The notes beneath the pieces were generated by a model, which was not told where the DNA came from, ran no database searches, and saw only the letters and a list, made by a program, of their open reading frames with translations. DNA of 26,861 nt from a virus. A program made the position numbers and the translations under genes. Below, piece by piece: positions 18,664-26,852 of the stretch; the first letter of the stretch is position 1; each line of letters opens with the position of its first letter. Location: positions 1 to 26,861 of the IMG/VR virus record IMGVR_UViG_3300025369_000053. One strand, 5' to 3'.

Positions 18664-20808
18664 ATGGCTAACTACGGCGTTGGAGTATACGGTGCATCGA
18701 CCTATGGTCAAACGGCAAAAATTGGCTACTCAGTTAGCCCGATGTCCATTACAACTATTAACTTTTCTGAAGTGTATGTCTATTGGCAAATACCAACAGG
18801 AACATATTCCAAGGTTCGATTAGTTCGTAACCAAAACAGCTACCCAGAACATTCAGAAGACGGCGTAATCATCTATGAAGACACTGCCATGAATAGAACA
18901 GTTTTTAGAGACGGTGAAGACAACGTTAACTCTATTGCTATTGTTTCTGGTAAGCCTATTTATTACACCATGTTTTTGTTTACACAAGATTTAGTATGGG
19001 TAAACGCAGGTTCTGCGGGTGCAATTGTTGCTGCTGACCATAATTTGCAAAATACTTTTATGAACATGCTGCCACGTGTCTTTACCAGCAAAGAACAAAG
19101 TCCATTAGCAGAAATTGATACAACCTCTCCATTGTATTTAATGATGGACGGGTTTACGTTTACCATGGAAGATTTTGTTACTCGTCTTGATTTGCTTAAT
19201 CCTGACCACACACGCATATCTACTCCTGCTGAAATTTTGCCGTTAGAGCAAGTACATGTTGGATTAGACCCAGAGCCTGGAATCCCTGTTAAAAATCAAA
19301 AGCAACTTATTCGTGAAGCAATTTACATGTACACCAACAAGGGAACACCATCAGGACTAACGACTTACATTGAGTCATTGACGGGCTATTACCCACAGAT
19401 AACTGTCTCCCCTAATCTTTTGTTAAATGTTCAAGATTCAACGTTCTACCAAGCAATAGGTAACTGGCAAGCAACAGCGGGCACTCTTTCTTCTACGGAA
19501 GAACTGACCCCTACATCAAATGCAAATGCCATCGATGAAAATTACACGTGCAAAATCGTAGCTTCAGGTGCTGGCTCTATGACGTTAGGAATGGATTCGC
19601 CCATTCTAAAGGGAGTCCCTATTACTCCTGGACAACAGTACGTATTGTCTGCACAGATAAAGTCTCCTACTAGCGCTGGAACTATAACGCCATCAATTGT
19701 TTTGTATGATGGAAAAGGTAACGCCATCGGTTCCCCTATTGTTGGAAGTTCTACTTCAGCTAACAACACTTGGAAGAGCATATCCGTTACGGCAACGGCG
19801 CCTTTGTTTGTATCCGACTCAGTTCAATCGGCAACAGGTAATGGCACAACTACTGTTTATACAACCTTTGATAATCACAAATTTGTTGTTGGAGACACCG
19901 TTACTGTTACAGGCTTTGCCACGTCAGCCGCAAATACCTCATCAGCAACTATTACTGCGGTTACTACAAGTACCTTTAGTATTTCCAGTTCTTTCTCTGG
20001 CTCTACTGCTAACACTGAAGTAGGAAATGCAGTCAACCATAACACCAGCGCATTTTATGCGGGGTTAAAGTTCGCATGGTCTGCGTCAGGGACTTATTAC
20101 GTTGACATGGTCTGCTTACAGCAAGGCTCTACACCAGCGTATGACGAAGCTCGTGCTCTTACTATCTTTGTCAATCCTAACAAAACAAACTTAATCAACA
20201 ATCCATCTTTCGAACAAAACGTTACAGATGGTTGGACAAAGACTGGCGCAGTCACTGTTACCCAAGATACAGATATTGACCCGCAAGTGTATGCAGGCTC
20301 TAATAGTGCCAAGCTCGTTGCCACAGGTGCCTGGTCGTTTACCTCCAACACTGGAGCAATAAACAAAGGTCAGTACTACACCGCCTCTGCTGAAGTGAAG
20401 GGCACTGGTACGGTTACCATGACCATAACAGCAGGTTCTGACGTTCAGACATTTACCATTCCTGCCAGCTCAACATGGGGTCGTTATGCGGCAACGATGA
20501 TTGTTCCTGTCGACTCCACTGCTACAGGAATCAACGTGTCTTTCTCAGGGGCAGCGGGAACATTCCACATTGACACCGTTCAACTTGAACAGTCCTTCAA
20601 GGCAACAGAGTACTTTGACGGATACCTGCCCGAAGCCTATGGCGCTGTATGGACGGGAACTCCAAACAACTCTCCATCAGTCATTTACTTGAGCAAGCCA
20701 ATCAAAATGTTTAGATTGGGCAACACGCTCAATGACTGGGTTCCCAAGGGCACTTTTTGGCGAATCAAGTCTTACGCTGGCTTGGAGTACACCAACCTTT
20801 CGGTATAA
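18664..20808 (+). CDS. gpI-like tail protein fused to carbohydrate-binding-like sandwich domains
   Basis: This encodes 714 residues from ATG 18664. An N-terminal beta domain (1-120; fibronectin-like VYVYWQIPTGTYSKVRLVRN) precedes a gpI-like region (about 125-245; LPRVFTSKEQSPLAEIDTTS, LYLMMDGFTFTMEDFVTRLD, REAIYMYTNKGTPSGLTTYI), the part that in gpI proteins binds the gpJ wedge. Two CBM4/9-like sandwiches follow: about 250-495 (NLLLNVQDSTFYQAIGNWQA ... YYVDMVCLQQ) and about 505-655 (NLINNPSFEQNVTDGWTKTG ... FHIDTVQLEQSFKATEYFDG). The first is interrupted near residues 381-463 by a small Thr/Ser-rich module containing VVGDTVTVTGFA. This is the best receptor-binding candidate here, likely recognising host glycans. 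Confidence 0.75.
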   Translation: MANYGVGVYGASTYGQTAKIGYSVSPMSITTINFSEVYVYWQIPTGTYSKVRLVRNQNSYPEHSEDGVIIYEDTAMNRTVFRDGEDNVNSIAIVSGKPIYYTMFLFTQDLVWVNAGSAGAIVAADHNLQNTFMNMLPRVFTSKEQSPLAEIDTTSPLYLMMDGFTFTMEDFVTRLDLLNPDHTRISTPAEILPLEQVHVGLDPEPGIPVKNQKQLIREAIYMYTNKGTPSGLTTYIESLTGYYPQITVSPNLLLNVQDSTFYQAIGNWQATAGTLSSTEELTPTSNANAIDENYTCKIVASGAGSMTLGMDSPILKGVPITPGQQYVLSAQIKSPTSAGTITPSIVLYDGKGNAIGSPIVGSSTSANNTWKSISVTATAPLFVSDSVQSATGNGTTTVYTTFDNHKFVVGDTVTVTGFATSAANTSSATITAVTTSTFSISSSFSGSTANTEVGNAVNHNTSAFYAGLKFAWSASGTYYVDMVCLQQGSTPAYDEARALTIFVNPNKTNLINNPSFEQNVTDGWTKTGAVTVTQDTDIDPQVYAGSNSAKLVATGAWSFTSNTGAINKGQYYTASAEVKGTGTVTMTITAGSDVQTFTIPASSTWGRYAATMIVPVDSTATGINVSFSGAAGTFHIDTVQLEQSFKATEYFDGYLPEAYGAVWTGTPNNSPSVIYLSKPIKMFRLGNTLNDWVPKGTFWRIKSYAGLEYTNLSV

Positions 20809-21684: not shown

Positions 21685-22656
21685 GTGGAAATTCCTCAGA
21701 GTGCCTTTTTAGCCAACCTCACCGATTATCAGTTTCGTTTGCTGGCTGTTTTGTGCCACAAATCGGGCTCTGAAGGCCGTTTTAAGGGCTCTCTAGCCGA
21801 GTTGGGTACATCGACTGGCAACGTTAGCGAGAAGACGGTCAGGAGAGGCTTGAAAGGCTTGGAGGAGGCGCAGTTCATCAAGCGCATCCCGACCAAGCGA
21901 GCCAATGGCTATCGGGGAATGGACATCTACGAGATGATGGACAAAAATGTCCAACAAGTTCCTGAGATTGTGGACAAAAATGTCCACGCCTCACGTGGCT
22001 ATAAGTCACGTAGCAGTATGGCTAATAAGCTATTAGTACCTAATAGCCATAATAGTAATCAATTAAAAGAATCTAAAACCGAAGGTTTTACAAAGGAGAT
22101 AATCATCCCTATGAGAAAATGGGAAGATGATGGAGACGATTTGGCGGGCTTTGGCCTCGTGGAAGAACGAGACGCCCCGCAACCCAAGATTAGAAAGTCC
22201 GACCCCAAGACTCGGGGCAAACGACCTGAGCACGAGTGGACAGCACTTGATGTCGCATCTGAGTTTAGTTTCCGAGTTGGTCGCAAGTACCCGCTCCTTC
22301 CAGGAACCGTCAACGTCAGACAGCTTGCAGGAGCACTCTCCAAGTTCAGAAAGCAATACGACACCAACGCTCTGATTGAGTTAGAGTTGCTGCGCCTGTT
22401 CATGGCGGATGAGCGCAACTTCAAAAACGTGGGCGATGAAGCCCCGTTGTTGTACAAGTTGTACCTTGCATCGTTTAAAACAAAGATTAATCAGGCACGA
22501 GAGAACCTCGGTTTGAAGAAGATAAACGCTGTCCTCGAACCTGTGGTTAAGATGGGCACACTCGTTGCTAGTGATGGTTTGGTCTTCCAGAACACCATAG
22601 CGGGACGAGCTCAATTGGAACGTTATGAGAAGAAGCTAAAGGAGGCGCAAGCGTGA
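21685..22656 (+). CDS. Winged-helix replication initiator-like protein
   Basis: This encodes 323 residues from GTG 21685, with TTGGAG about 13 nt upstream. Residues about 8-82 form a winged-helix DNA-binding domain: LTDYQFRLLAVLCHKSGSEG, then LAELGTSTGNVSEKTVRRGL and KGLEEAQFIKRIPTK. The helix-turn-helix and the wing are as in many plasmid and phage initiators. A low-complexity linker follows (about 90-142). The C-terminal part (143-323) has EHEWTALDVASEFSFRVGRK and a helical end. It opens the replication gene set (loader, helicase, primase), so an initiator role is likely. The linker DNA carries palindromes and an AT-rich stretch, and an internal start at 22111 with AAAGGAG is possible. Exact family not identified. 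Confidence 0.7.
   Translation: MEIPQSAFLANLTDYQFRLLAVLCHKSGSEGRFKGSLAELGTSTGNVSEKTVRRGLKGLEEAQFIKRIPTKRANGYRGMDIYEMMDKNVQQVPEIVDKNVHASRGYKSRSSMANKLLVPNSHNSNQLKESKTEGFTKEIIIPMRKWEDDGDDLAGFGLVEERDAPQPKIRKSDPKTRGKRPEHEWTALDVASEFSFRVGRKYPLLPGTVNVRQLAGALSKFRKQYDTNALIELELLRLFMADERNFKNVGDEAPLLYKLYLASFKTKINQARENLGLKKINAVLEPVVKMGTLVASDGLVFQNTIAGRAQLERYEKKLKEAQA
21938..21953 (+). repeat. Palindromic 16-mer, copy 1
   Basis: The sequence TGGACAAAAATGTCCA has 6-nt arms (TGGACA and TGTCCA) around AAAA. A second identical copy lies 33 nt downstream, centre to centre, about three helical turns, so both would face the same side of the DNA. Because 33 is divisible by three, both copies encode the same peptide DKNV. 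It is a plausible binding site for a dimeric winged-helix protein. Confidence 0.8.
21971..21986 (+). repeat. Palindromic 16-mer, copy 2
   Basis: This is identical to the copy at 21938-21953 (TGGACAAAAATGTCCA) and encodes the second DKNV. It is followed by GCC and the TCACGT pair, then by the AT-rich stretch. Two exact copies in a protein-coding region, in the same frame, suggest selection at the DNA level or a recent short duplication. Confidence 0.8.
22029..22047 (+). repeat. Perfect inverted repeat, 8-bp arms
   Basis: GCTATTAG (22029-22036) and CTAATAGC (22040-22047) pair perfectly around a TAC loop. The element lies in the AT-rich part of the initiator gene. It could extrude as a cruciform or fold in the mRNA. 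No T-run follows, so it is not an intrinsic terminator. Confidence 0.75.
22074..22090 (+). repeat. Perfect inverted repeat, 7-bp arms
   Basis: TAAAACC (22074-22080) and GGTTTTA (22084-22090) pair perfectly around GAA. The arm ends one base before the AAAGGAG of the candidate internal start, so in mRNA the hairpin could influence access to that site. It also marks the right edge of the AT-rich segment. Confidence 0.7.
22092..22113 (+). promoter_or_regulatory. Candidate internal translation start in the initiator gene
   Basis: AAAGGAG (22092-22098) lies 12 nt before an ATG at 22111 that is in frame with the full gene. Initiation there would yield a 181-residue product lacking the winged helix and starting MRKWEDDGDDLAGFG. 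The site is a better Shine-Dalgarno match than that of the full gene's GTG. The spacing is somewhat long, and usage is not proven. Confidence 0.4.
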
Positions 22657-23008: not shown

Positions 23009-23235
23009 AGTTTGATTGGGATAATCCCATAAAGCGTGAACACCCCAATTGGTTTCTCCGTCATTACGGAAACCTCATGGGTCGCATTGCTCATTTCTGT
23101 TTGAAACGAGCTGAAGATTATCAAACTGTTTGGGAAATTCCTATGGAAGACGAAGACGAGATGTGGGACCGCAATAACGACATCGATTGGGAGAAGCTTC
23201 AGTTTGAATACAAGCGCTGGAAAGATGACCACTGA
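23005..23235 (+). CDS. Hypothetical protein, Trp-rich and acidic at the C-terminus
   Basis: This encodes 76 residues from ATG 23005 (ATGA overlap). The N-terminal part is basic and aromatic (FDWDNPIKREHPNWFLRHYG), and the second half is acidic (IPMEDEDEMWDRNNDIDWEK). There are six tryptophans in 76 residues. It may be an adaptor for the DnaC-like loader encoded immediately downstream, since its stop overlaps that gene's ATG (TGATG), but there is no family evidence. Confidence 0.65.
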   Translation: MKFDWDNPIKREHPNWFLRHYGNLMGRIAHFCLKRAEDYQTVWEIPMEDEDEMWDRNNDIDWEKLQFEYKRWKDDH

Positions 23236-23954
23236 TGTATGACATCAACACGCTCTCTCCTTTGAAGAAACACTGGTTACTACGTACCTCGAACATTCCT
23301 CGACGCTTTTTAGGCATGGAGCCAAGCGATATTGCCGAAAAGACTGGCTCGTTTTCTCCTCATGTGCAGAACTGGATTGACACTGTTCTAGAGGGCAAAA
23401 TCATCAAAGGCATTGGAAACATTGGTGTTACTGGTATCGGGTTGCTCTTTGATGGAGCGCCAGGAATCGGCAAGACCACAACTGCTGTCGTTGCTGCGAT
23501 GGAAGTTGTGCGACACATGCCTGAAGATGAGCTTCTTGCTGCCAAGCTTTTGCAAATGAAGGAATCTGATTACGGGCTAGGTGCACGAGTGGTGTATTAC
23601 TTAACCTATCCAGAATTTTTGTCTAGAAAAAAGTCAACCTTCGACGCTGACCCCGAAACGAAGAGAGACATGACTTATGAGTTGGATGGTCTTCACGGGC
23701 GGTCGAAGTTTGACTGGCTTAATGTTCGCATACTTGTTATTGATGATTTGGGTAAAGAATACGGCTCAAAATATGATGACACTTCTTTCGATGAGATTCT
23801 TCGATTACGGTACGATAAGGGATTGCCTACCATCGTGACAACAAACGTTCGGTTAGAAGATTGGGAAGCTCAGTACAAGGAAGCCATGGCGAGTTTCGCA
23901 GGCGAAGCGTTTAATCGAGTGCCTATCATTGGTACTGACTTGCGAGGCGCATGA
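23235..23954 (+). CDS. DnaC/IstB-like helicase loader ATPase
   Basis: This encodes 239 residues; ATG 23235 overlaps the preceding TGA. It is an AAA+ ATPase: Walker A GAPGIGKT at residues 74-81, Walker B ILVIDDLG at 166-173 followed by K-E-Y, sensor-1 TTN at 202-204 within LPTIVTTNVRLEDW, and an arginine-finger region FNRVPIIGTDLRG near the end. That order is typical of DnaC, DnaI and IstB. Such proteins open the replicative helicase ring and place it on origin DNA. A DnaB-like helicase and a primase follow in the same operon, supporting loader rather than transposition function; no transposase accompanies it. Confidence 0.9.
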   Translation: MYDINTLSPLKKHWLLRTSNIPRRFLGMEPSDIAEKTGSFSPHVQNWIDTVLEGKIIKGIGNIGVTGIGLLFDGAPGIGKTTTAVVAAMEVVRHMPEDELLAAKLLQMKESDYGLGARVVYYLTYPEFLSRKKSTFDADPETKRDMTYELDGLHGRSKFDWLNVRILVIDDLGKEYGSKYDDTSFDEILRLRYDKGLPTIVTTNVRLEDWEAQYKEAMASFAGEAFNRVPIIGTDLRGA

Positions 23955-23968
23955 TGAGAGGAAAGCAA

Positions 23969-24253
23969 ATGGCATCCCCTTGGAGAACTATCCAAGTGTT
24001 CATCTCGTCGCAAGCTGCTGGCATTTTTGAGGTAGAAGTTGATACGCAATCCAAAGCATTGCGATGCAACTGTCCAGTATGGAACAAGCGCCAATCTTGC
24101 AAACATACTAAGTTCGTCAGTCAAAAGATGATGCTCAATCATGGTCATTACTCCATCACCGTGGGTGAAGAGGTAGACGAAGACATTGACGTTGAAGACC
24201 CCAAGAAATTTAGAGAGTACGTACTAAAGTACGCTAAGGTAGAGGTACTGTGA
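23969..24253 (+). CDS. SWIM zinc-finger protein
   Basis: This encodes 94 residues from ATG 23969, preceded by GAGAGGAAAG with about 7-nt spacing. ATG 23951 or 23954 would add 6 or 5 residues and overlap the loader stop, but they have poor sites. The core LRCNCPVWNKRQSCKHTKFV holds C33-x-C35-x8-C44-x-H46, the CxCxnCxH pattern of the SWIM domain, a small zinc fold for DNA or protein contacts. The C-terminal third is acidic (EEVDEDIDVEDPKKF). Encoded between loader and helicase, it may act at the fork or in recombination-dependent replication; this is inference. Confidence 0.75.
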   Translation: MASPWRTIQVFISSQAAGIFEVEVDTQSKALRCNCPVWNKRQSCKHTKFVSQKMMLNHGHYSITVGEEVDEDIDVEDPKKFREYVLKYAKVEVL

Positions 24254-24666
24254 AAGGCGGGGACATTTCCAATGTCTCCTCTCCGCAAGTTATCGCCACT
24301 ACTACGCTCGTAGTGTCTTTAAAAGAGGTCGAAGAAAGAAAACTTTTGTCACGCAAAGTAACGCATGTTCTGGGTGAGATAAACATGCTGGCAGCAAACA
24401 AGCTGTGGCTATTGTCTAACGAGTATGGTTTATCGTTAGAGCTTGCTGGATTTGCAGACCAAGGTTGGACAGAAGAACTTCTTGATAAAGCCTTTGAGCG
24501 GTTAGAGCGTCGAGTAGTCAACCCATTTAACTATTGGGAACTATACGAAGATGTGGATGAGTTAGTAGGAATGCTTCCTTATCGACCCAACCTCAAGGCG
24601 GTCATTGACGTTCCAGGGCAAGTGGCACGATACGGTTCAGCAGGAGTAGAGTTAGACAACATATAA
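24250..24666 (+). CDS. Hypothetical protein in the replication operon
   Basis: This encodes 138 residues; GTG 24250 overlaps the preceding TGA (GTGA), with GAGG just upstream. It is largely helical: LVVSLKEVEERKLLSRKVTH, INMLAANKLWLLSNEYGLSL, WTEELLDKAFERLERRV. It ends with DVDELVGMLPYRPNLKAVID. No catalytic motif, cysteine cluster or membrane span is present. I do not recognise the family. Gene order suggests a helicase or loader partner. Confidence 0.65.
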   Translation: MKGGDISNVSSPQVIATTTLVVSLKEVEERKLLSRKVTHVLGEINMLAANKLWLLSNEYGLSLELAGFADQGWTEELLDKAFERLERRVVNPFNYWELYEDVDELVGMLPYRPNLKAVIDVPGQVARYGSAGVELDNI

Positions 24667-24675
24667 GGGGGAGCA

Positions 24676-25926
24676 GTGGCGGCAGATAACGAACACCGTT
24701 TAGTTAGCAAGGTAATTCGTGACAGGGACATCATTCCCGCCATTCAGCGTGGTGTAAACGACACGTGGTTCCTTGATGACGATAACCGCAAGGTGTGGGC
24801 ATTTGTCCGTAAGCATTACAGCGATTACAGCGAAGTCCCTACGGGCGTCACCGTTCTTGACCATTACCCTAATTACAAGATTCTTGATGTTGAAGACAGC
24901 ATCGAATACCTGCTCGACACGATGGTTGCCTTTCGTCGTCGCTTACTTACTCGTCAGGGACTAGAAGCATCAATTGAGCAACTGCAGGCACAAGACCATG
25001 AAGCTGCGTTGTTGCAGATGGAAGCCACTGTTTCTCGAGTTAACGCCCAAGGAGTTATTGGCACCAACGAGGTAGACCTCACCAAGAACGTTGAAGAGCG
25101 CTACAAAGAGTATCAAGCCATACAGAACCAACAGTTCCTTGGCATACCTACAGGATTTGAAAAGATTGATGAAGCCACCGCAGGATTACAAGGCGGTCAA
25201 CTTGTAACGGTTATTGCTCCGCCAAAGACAGGTAAGTCGCAGATTGCGTTGCAGATGGCTATCAACGTGCACGCTCAAGGCAAGATTCCTATGTTCCAGT
25301 CCTTTGAGATGAACAACCACGAACAACAGCAACGCCATGACGCTATGCGTGCCCACATTTCCCACAGCCGTTATCGCCGTGGAAAGCTAAGCCCAACAGA
25401 AGAGACTCGCTTAATTGACATGCTCAATGGCATGGAAACTATGCACCCATTCCACCTTGTCGATGCAGTCAGCGGAATTACCGTCTCAGCATTGTCTGCA
25501 AAGATAGAGCAGACCAAGCCAGACATTGTCTTTGTTGATGGTGTGTATTTGATGTTGGATGAAATTACTGGCGAGATGAACACGCCACAAGCGATTACTA
25601 ACATTACTCGTGCCCTCAAAAGACTTGCACAAAAGACAGGTTTGCCTATCGTCATTACCACTCAGACGTTGTTGTGGAAGATGCGAGCAGGCAAAGTAAC
25701 AGCAGACTCCATCGGTTACTCATCCTCATTCTTCCAAGACTCGGATGTTATCTTGGGTTTAGAACCTGTTGAAGAAAACGAAGAAGTGCGAAAGCTAAAG
25801 ATTGTTGCAAGCCGTAACTGCCCTCCTAGCGAAACTGCATTGACATGGAATTGGGAAACTGGTTGCTTCCATGATGAGAACTTCATGACAAAGTGCAAGC
25901 ACTGTATGGATTGGTTGAACCGATAG
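24676..25926 (+). CDS. Replicative DnaB-like DNA helicase
   Basis: This encodes 416 residues from GTG 24676, with AGGGGGAG about 5 nt upstream. Residues 1-120 match the helical DnaB N-terminal domain layout, shorter than usual. The RecA-like motor contains Walker A APPKTGKS (181-188; the first Gly of the classic loop is Ala) and Walker B DIVFVDGVYLM (283-293). It also contains ITTQ (327-330) and the C-terminal segment DSDVILGLEP. The protein would unwind the fork as a hexamer, with the loader (23235) and primase (25926) beside it. The last 20 residues carry C397-x-H399 and C407-x2-C410, an unusual cluster that might bind zinc. Confidence 0.92.
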   Translation: MAADNEHRLVSKVIRDRDIIPAIQRGVNDTWFLDDDNRKVWAFVRKHYSDYSEVPTGVTVLDHYPNYKILDVEDSIEYLLDTMVAFRRRLLTRQGLEASIEQLQAQDHEAALLQMEATVSRVNAQGVIGTNEVDLTKNVEERYKEYQAIQNQQFLGIPTGFEKIDEATAGLQGGQLVTVIAPPKTGKSQIALQMAINVHAQGKIPMFQSFEMNNHEQQQRHDAMRAHISHSRYRRGKLSPTEETRLIDMLNGMETMHPFHLVDAVSGITVSALSAKIEQTKPDIVFVDGVYLMLDEITGEMNTPQAITNITRALKRLAQKTGLPIVITTQTLLWKMRAGKVTADSIGYSSSFFQDSDVILGLEPVEENEEVRKLKIVASRNCPPSETALTWNWETGCFHDENFMTKCKHCMDWLNR

Positions 25927-26852
25927 TGGATGTTGAAAAGGTTCTTCTTAACCTAGACCTCAAGCTGTACTCGCAACGTGGCGCTGAGGTGTTGGGGTTA
26001 TGCCCAATGCACAAACAGCGTGTGGGCAAAGATGACCACAACCCATCATGGTGGATTAACTCAGAGACTGGTGCCCACATTTGTTTTTCGTGTGGGTACA
26101 AGGGAAATATCTACACTCTCGTCAAAGATGTTCTAGGACTTAGCTTAAACGACGCTAAAGCGTTCATTGCAGACAAGGCAGAGGTTCCCGTTGATGCGCT
26201 CATGAAGCGTCTGCACGAGTTACCTCAATATGTTGTTCCAGAACAGACCATAGCCATGTCCGAAGCTCGCCTTGCCGTGTATGGAGAGCCACCCGCTATT
26301 GAGTTAAAGAAGCGGTTTATTACTGCAGAAACAGCAAGCAAGTGTGGAGTGCTGTGGGATTTCAAAATGAGCGCTTGGATACTGCCTATTCGTAGTCCAG
26401 AAGATTTCTCGTTGTGGGGTTGGCAAGAGAAAGGTGCTACGGGACGGTACTTCCGTAATCAACCTGCAGGAGTAAAGAAGTCCCGCACTGTTTTTAACGT
26501 ACAGAATTTGCAAGAAGAATTACTTATCGTTGTTGAGTCACCGTTAGATTCTGTTCGTCTAACAGGTTTGGGATACAACTCCGTCTCTACATTTGGCGCC
26601 ATGCCTAGCGATGAGCAAGTCAAGATTATGCGCCGAGCACCTCGAGTCCTAGCTGCTTTTGACAATGACGAGGCAGGAAAGAAGGCGTCAGAAGCCATTC
26701 GAGTATCTGCAAAAAAGTATGGAATTGAATTATCGTTCTTTAATTACGAAGGAATAGACGCCAAGGACGTTGGCGACATGACTCAGGCTGAGATTCAACG
26801 AGGAGTTGAGACTGCCAAAGATATGATTTTCGGCAAGGCTGCCTACCTATGA
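25926..26852 (+). CDS. DNA primase (CHC2 zinc finger and TOPRIM domain)
   Basis: This encodes 308 residues from GTG 25926, overlapping the helicase stop (TAGTG); GTG 25893 would add 11 residues. I prefer the inner start because the family usually begins about 25 residues before the zinc motif (here MDVEKVLLNLDLK). The zinc ribbon is C26-x2-H29 ... C53-x2-C56 (LCPMHK and CFSCGYKG). The TOPRIM domain has E204 in VVESPLDS and D246-x-D248 in AFDNDEAGKKASEAI, the acidic residues that bind metal for primer synthesis. The protein is compact compared with DnaG (about 580 residues), with no clear C-terminal helicase-binding domain. Confidence 0.9.
   Translation: MDVEKVLLNLDLKLYSQRGAEVLGLCPMHKQRVGKDDHNPSWWINSETGAHICFSCGYKGNIYTLVKDVLGLSLNDAKAFIADKAEVPVDALMKRLHELPQYVVPEQTIAMSEARLAVYGEPPAIELKKRFITAETASKCGVLWDFKMSAWILPIRSPEDFSLWGWQEKGATGRYFRNQPAGVKKSRTVFNVQNLQEELLIVVESPLDSVRLTGLGYNSVSTFGAMPSDEQVKIMRRAPRVLAAFDNDEAGKKASEAIRVSAKKYGIELSFFNYEGIDAKDVGDMTQAEIQRGVETAKDMIFGKAAYL

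Follow-up and report, generated by a model that had tools for sequence, protein, structure and literature searches.

The analysed stretch of DNA, hereafter the window, comprises the 26,861 bases of a virus record. It contains a gene for a putative replication initiator, followed on the same strand by genes for a helicase loader, a replicative helicase and a primase (Table 1). This initiator-loader-DnaB-primase order is identical in 15 of 15 long related contigs. Two small proteins without a family (23951-24253 and 24250-24666) sit between the loader and DnaB, an order that is likewise kept in all 15 long relatives. Compared with most relatives, one related contig of 76,311 bases (L007) carries extra DNA, roughly 1 kb of it preceding the loader and roughly 0.6 kb ahead of DnaB. 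The helicase is closest to those of Streptomyces phages (33%), which is too weak for naming the host. At 18664-20808, after the baseplate genes, the window encodes a 714-residue protein with a CBM_4_9 carbohydrate-binding domain, probably a tail fibre or receptor-binding part.

Table 1. Features of the initiator gene and of the replication genes that follow it, in positions of the window.
Feature	Position	Strand	Support
Initiator gene, 323 aa, GTG start	21685..22656	+	HTH_36 E=0.00098 (below Pfam cut-off), phrog_270, AlphaFold2
Winged-helix domain, aa 1-84; recognition helix NVSEKTVRRGL	21685..21936	+	
Iteron 1, TGGACAAAAATGTCCA	21938..21953		
Iteron 2, TGGACAAAAATGTCCA	21971..21986		
Conserved box adjoining last iteron, TCAC(A/G)TGRCTATAAGTCACGTAGC; second half varies between lineages	21991..22014		
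Near-invariant core ATTAGTACCTAAT of AT-rich putative unwinding element	22032..22044		
Near-invariant AGTNATNAATTAAAAGA of AT-rich element	22054..22070		
Hairpin TAAAACC-GAA-GGTTTTA, 7-bp arms; structure kept via compensatory changes in relatives	22074..22090		
C-terminal helical domain, without match to solved structure	22117..22653	+	
DnaC/IstB-like helicase loader	23235..23954	+	
DnaB-like replicative helicase	24676..25926	+	
DnaG-like primase (CHC2 zinc ribbon, Toprim)	25893..26852	+	

The initiator matches phrog_270, a family of replication initiation proteins, at 1.2e-7. Its score against HTH_36 (PF13730) is 19.3 bits at a Pfam cut-off of 25, and one relative (L357) scores above the cut-off with 27.7 bits. 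AlphaFold2 and a fold search assigned a winged helix to the N-terminal half, with a weak match to the solved structure 4PQL, and the nearest solved structures are winged-helix folds of transcription regulators. The initial annotation had placed the DNA elements described below in the linker between two halves of the protein. This agrees with the AlphaFold2 model, in which residues 88-140 have a pLDDT below 50 and form a predicted disordered linker between the ordered winged-helix half and an ordered helical half. The C-terminal domain, modelled with a moderate pLDDT of 76, had no match by fold in the PDB, DnaD and RepA C-domains included, and among viral models it matched uncultured phage proteins only. 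Searching solved structures by sequence with the initiator returned nothing meaningful. Pfam gave no lambda O match, and just a weak match to phrog_678, 'replication initiation O-like', was obtained (E=0.0014). PF06970 RepA_N was absent from the Pfam matches at E≤1, and a RepA_N-type DnaD-like C-terminal domain was found neither by sequence nor by fold against solved structures. A scan of GTDB 220 with one genome per species found no relative, and no relative of the initiator was present in the named phage records searched. Relatives were taken from IMG/VR, by protein searches and by a DNA-only search, and 138 distinct genes entered the main comparisons.

Two identical palindromes had been noted in the linker-coding DNA, and TGGACAAAAATGTCCA indeed occurs exactly twice, 33 bp apart from start to start. 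No third copy was found elsewhere in the 26,861-base window when up to two mismatches were allowed. Single palindromes with 6-bp arms and a 4-bp centre are not rare, with 15 such sites in the window, but two identical ones at a distance of 33 bp are unusual (mean of 0.38 matches in shuffles at three or fewer mismatches). The pair of TCACGT hexamers 15 bp apart was also recovered, at 21991 and 22006, and the first of them usually reads TCACATG in relatives. Within iteron 2, TGTGGACAA resembles an actinobacterial DnaA box. Relatives do not retain TGTGGACAA, and a host DnaA box is thus not conserved.

The AT-rich stretch of 75 nt spans 22016-22090 and has the 28.0% GC that had been reported for it. 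AT richness alone does not set it apart, since about 40 overlapping 75-nt windows elsewhere in the window are lower in GC. Among relatives, the core ATTAGTACCTAAT...AATTAAAAGA of this stretch is near invariant, and both core motifs are present in 116 of the 119 distinct loci found by protein similarity alone. None of these 119 loci keeps the gene and lacks the elements, the situation that the initial annotation had named as speaking against an origin. When IMG/VR was scanned with the DNA core only, blind to protein, 115 of 115 readable matches fell in the initiator gene. The core can serve as a DNA signature for finding this putative origin in uncultured phages. A variant core, TTAGTAGTACCTACTAG, replaces TTAGTACCTAATAG in the other three loci (L414, L416 and L417).

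The two inverted repeats described within the AT-rich stretch fared differently. The one with 8-bp arms is present at 22029-22047 (GCTATTAG-TAC-CTAATAGC), and its outer pairs are usually mismatched in relatives (GCCATTAG...CTAATAGC). We rejected it as a kept hairpin, as relatives retain the sequence ATTAGTACCTAAT and not the outer pairs. Judging from the relatives compared, this repeat and the TCACGT pair are mostly private to the present sequence. The repeat with 7-bp arms was confirmed at 22074-22090, and it is kept as a structure while its letters change.

Codon usage was compared in 66 representatives that are less than 95% identical to each other. In pairs with the same amino acid, linker codons are identical in 0.90-0.996 of cases. 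The corresponding fraction is about 0.48 for the C-terminal half, codon usage alone would give 0.35, and the first half of the winged helix lies in between at 0.6-0.7. By this measure of codon choice, the comparison shows that the linker is under selection at the DNA level. The check on relatives that the initial annotation had proposed thus came out in favour of an origin, as the DNA elements are retained and their codons are strongly constrained. Another explanation would be that selection acts on the linker peptide only and the DNA pattern is a consequence, and the peptide LVPN is in fact invariant in a 40-sequence alignment. However, a same-codon identity of at least 0.9 at degenerate codons does not follow from protein-level selection, the linker is predicted to be disordered, and the segment with the right-hand hairpin encodes 40 different peptides in 51 distinct sequences. 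As far as codon identity reports on selection, this explanation is already contradicted by the codon data, and we regard it as extremely unlikely. We also considered that translation might start internally, at the conserved Met preceding RKWEDD, and dropped the idea because other sequences have AAAGAAATA in place of the Shine-Dalgarno-like AAGGAG.

In these 51 distinct sequences from relatives, a short hairpin occurs at a fixed place, a few bases after AATTAAAAGA. A perfect stem of at least 6 bp is found in 48 of the 51, compared with 3% of other windows in the same genes, and the hairpin was significant against synonymous recoding in every sequence (p<0.05 in 51/51). The sequences contain 14 different inner five-pair stem cores, or 24 stem strings when length is counted, with no fewer than 26 changes of inner core along the C-domain tree. 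Among the 372 stem pairs of the 51 hairpins there are two mismatches and no G-T pair. The loops are 91% purine, most commonly GAA or AAA. Stable DNA mini-hairpins follow a general GNA loop rule. C-GAA-G closes an unusually stable DNA mini-hairpin (PMC10527192).

These features favour a DNA structure formed by the top strand, with an mRNA structure as the less favoured possibility. A hairpin kept by compensatory changes would also be expected if, instead of an origin, the conserved linker were an mRNA element that controls translation or the end of the transcript. G-U pairs would be tolerated in an RNA stem, whereas the corresponding G-T is absent from all stem pairs; moreover, there is no Rfam match and no terminator-like site at the hairpin, and the invariant AT core and the helix-matched iterons described below have no part in an mRNA element, which we consider very unlikely. 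As to what the DNA hairpin does, we tentatively suggest, with somewhat less than even confidence, that it has a function in the origin as single-stranded DNA. Selection would then retain a short perfect stem and, on the top strand, a loop that is rich in purines and often of the GNA type, but not the sequence itself, and the hairpin may act as a structure-specific signal that offers a landing place or a boundary when the helicase is loaded or priming begins. Read in this way, it cleanly illustrates how the hairpin of an origin can evolve through compensatory changes inside protein-coding sequence, and the compensatory series makes the role of such a hairpin at initiator-driven origins testable.

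The iterons differ between lineages and fall into TGTCC/GGAC, TTACC/GGTAA and a third type. We compared the site type with the recognition helix in all genes that belong to the two main classes, omitting 18 genes classed as 'other' on one or both sides. Helices with SD[KR] pair with TTACC sites (73 genes) and helices with E[KR] pair with TGTCC sites (45 genes), in agreement for 118 of 118 genes. Such agreement is as expected of binding partners and is an indirect hint that the iterons are bound by the winged helix. At least 10 switches of class are counted on the tree of the C-domain and a single one on that of the N-domain, which indicates that the winged helix is passed, together with its sites, from one C-terminal domain to another as a cassette. 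Thus, recognition domain and site appear, from their sequences, to be exchanged together in this uncultured phage family. Their joint movement is explained by linkage within one gene, and linkage of the neighbouring iteron and winged helix can by itself account for part of the association. Well-supported branches hold only three independent helix-site pairs, so the argument draws on how many changes there are rather than on a sign test. The third site type is found in L066 and L081 (CCAGACTGTC); in the linkers of L066, L068 and L081 it appears as ATCCAGACTGTC ... TAGTCTGGA, with a helix, NPSDSTVRRAV, outside both main classes. Such a natural helix-site series of three types in one family makes initiator-origin specificity testable. 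It also bears on which phages share or interfere with each other's replication, which could be tested by cassette swaps.

Palindromes with 4-bp arms and a 6-bp centre are present in somewhat more than half of the distinct linkers, and the rest contain only direct half-site repeats. The earlier proposal of a dimer bound to each palindrome thus fits the two copies present here but does not hold in general, because many relatives have direct half-site repeats only.

The cumulative GC skew, which had been proposed as a check, has its minimum for the window at 21,722, about 300 bp left of the AT core. The skew is higher to the right of the site than to the left in 15 of 15 long related contigs, and genes are nearly all on the + strand on both sides of the skew step. 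In longer contigs the step at the site is often not the largest (a median of 5.6% of positions exceed it), and many of the contigs used for skew may be incomplete. Because the step at the site is not always the strongest in larger contigs, we take the skew as support and not as proof.

The palindromes could alternatively be operators, by which the winged-helix protein represses transcription through or from the region, with the origin located elsewhere. This would be in line with the transcription regulators that are structurally nearest to the N-terminal half, but the sites lie inside the gene and promoter-like matches nearby (9/12) are close to the shuffle level. Furthermore, operators would account neither for the hairpin and the near-invariant AT core nor for the step in skew or the order of the replication genes. 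We therefore judge this alternative to be improbable. The replication origin suggested by the initial annotation is supported by the skew, by the constrained DNA elements of relatives and by the finding that none of the 119 loci from the protein search lacks them. We consider it highly probable that the best explanation as a whole is a phage replication origin inside the linker of its own initiator gene, working by the following steps.

If the initiator works like lambda O (PMC7466680, PMC3349717) and like Rep of pSK41 (PMC5703833), its N-terminal winged helix would bind the iterons, here the two palindromes, and the bound initiator would melt the neighbouring near-invariant AT-rich core. With help from the C-terminal domain, the DnaC-like loader of the phage may then place the DnaB-like helicase; this part for the C-terminal domain is conjecture, because the domain matches no solved structure. 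The phage primase would act after placement of the helicase. At its right edge, the AT-rich stretch has the small hairpin, which would form in the opened DNA and mark or hold the opened strand. The sequences show the anatomy of the locus, with its constrained elements, helix-site match, cassette exchange, kept hairpin, skew step and gene order, whereas binding, melting, helicase loading and the function of the hairpin are inferred.

Lambdoid O proteins are specific for their own iterons, and in lambda a further inverted repeat lies on the far side of the AT tract. The lambda ori, like that of Stx phages, lies in the middle of the initiator gene O, with inverted-repeat iterons beside an AT-rich tract, and the O protein hands over to a helicase loader (PMC7466680, PMC3349717). 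The locus described here is similar in that the iterons lie in the linker-coding part of the initiator gene and are directly adjoined by an AT-rich tract. Unlike in lambda, the DnaC-like loader, the DnaB-like helicase and the primase are all encoded by the phage, and the hairpin is retained while its sequence changes. The protein also differs from lambda O, as no sequence relation was found and the C-terminal domain is unrelated.

The RepA_N initiator of plasmid pSK41 has a winged-helix N-domain, origin boxes in the linker-coding DNA and a C-domain with a separate role, and in pPR9 an HTH_36 (pfam13730) domain and its origin were swapped in as a cassette of about 500 bp that is similar to a phage replication protein (PMC5703833). 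The present initiator resembles them in its winged-helix N-domain, in the putative origin boxes within its linker-coding DNA and in a C-domain with a presumably separate role, and its N-half matches HTH_36 and the structure 4PQL weakly. It differs from the RepA_N plasmids in being part of a phage module, in having no RepA_N match in Pfam and in its C-domain, which has no detectable similarity to solved structures. Judged by sequence, the design matches lambda ori and pSK41/pPR9 in kind, while the matches that would place the protein in the lambda O or RepA_N families were not found. Origins inside an initiator gene are already known, and pPR9 documents that an HTH_36 domain and its origin can be swapped jointly. 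In the literature we searched, three features had no precedent: a natural series of cassette exchanges on this large scale, the signature formed by the near-invariant core, and a hairpin in coding DNA that keeps its structure while its letters change.

The origins of PLE RepA are likewise modular replicons with cognate RepA-origin specificity, and in Odn of ICP1 a nuclease is joined to an origin-binding domain (PMC8263062). Four of the related initiator genes (L280, L308, L345 and L357) carry an HNH endonuclease domain (PF01844) of three sequence types, in frame between the winged helix and the iterons. These genes retain the iterons, the AT core and the hairpin. Odn exists as a protein of its own, whose GIY-YIG-type domain cuts the origin of another element, whereas the HNH domain is part of an initiator in which the initiator's own origin is retained. 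The inserted domain might be a homing-type invader, or it might act against rival origins.
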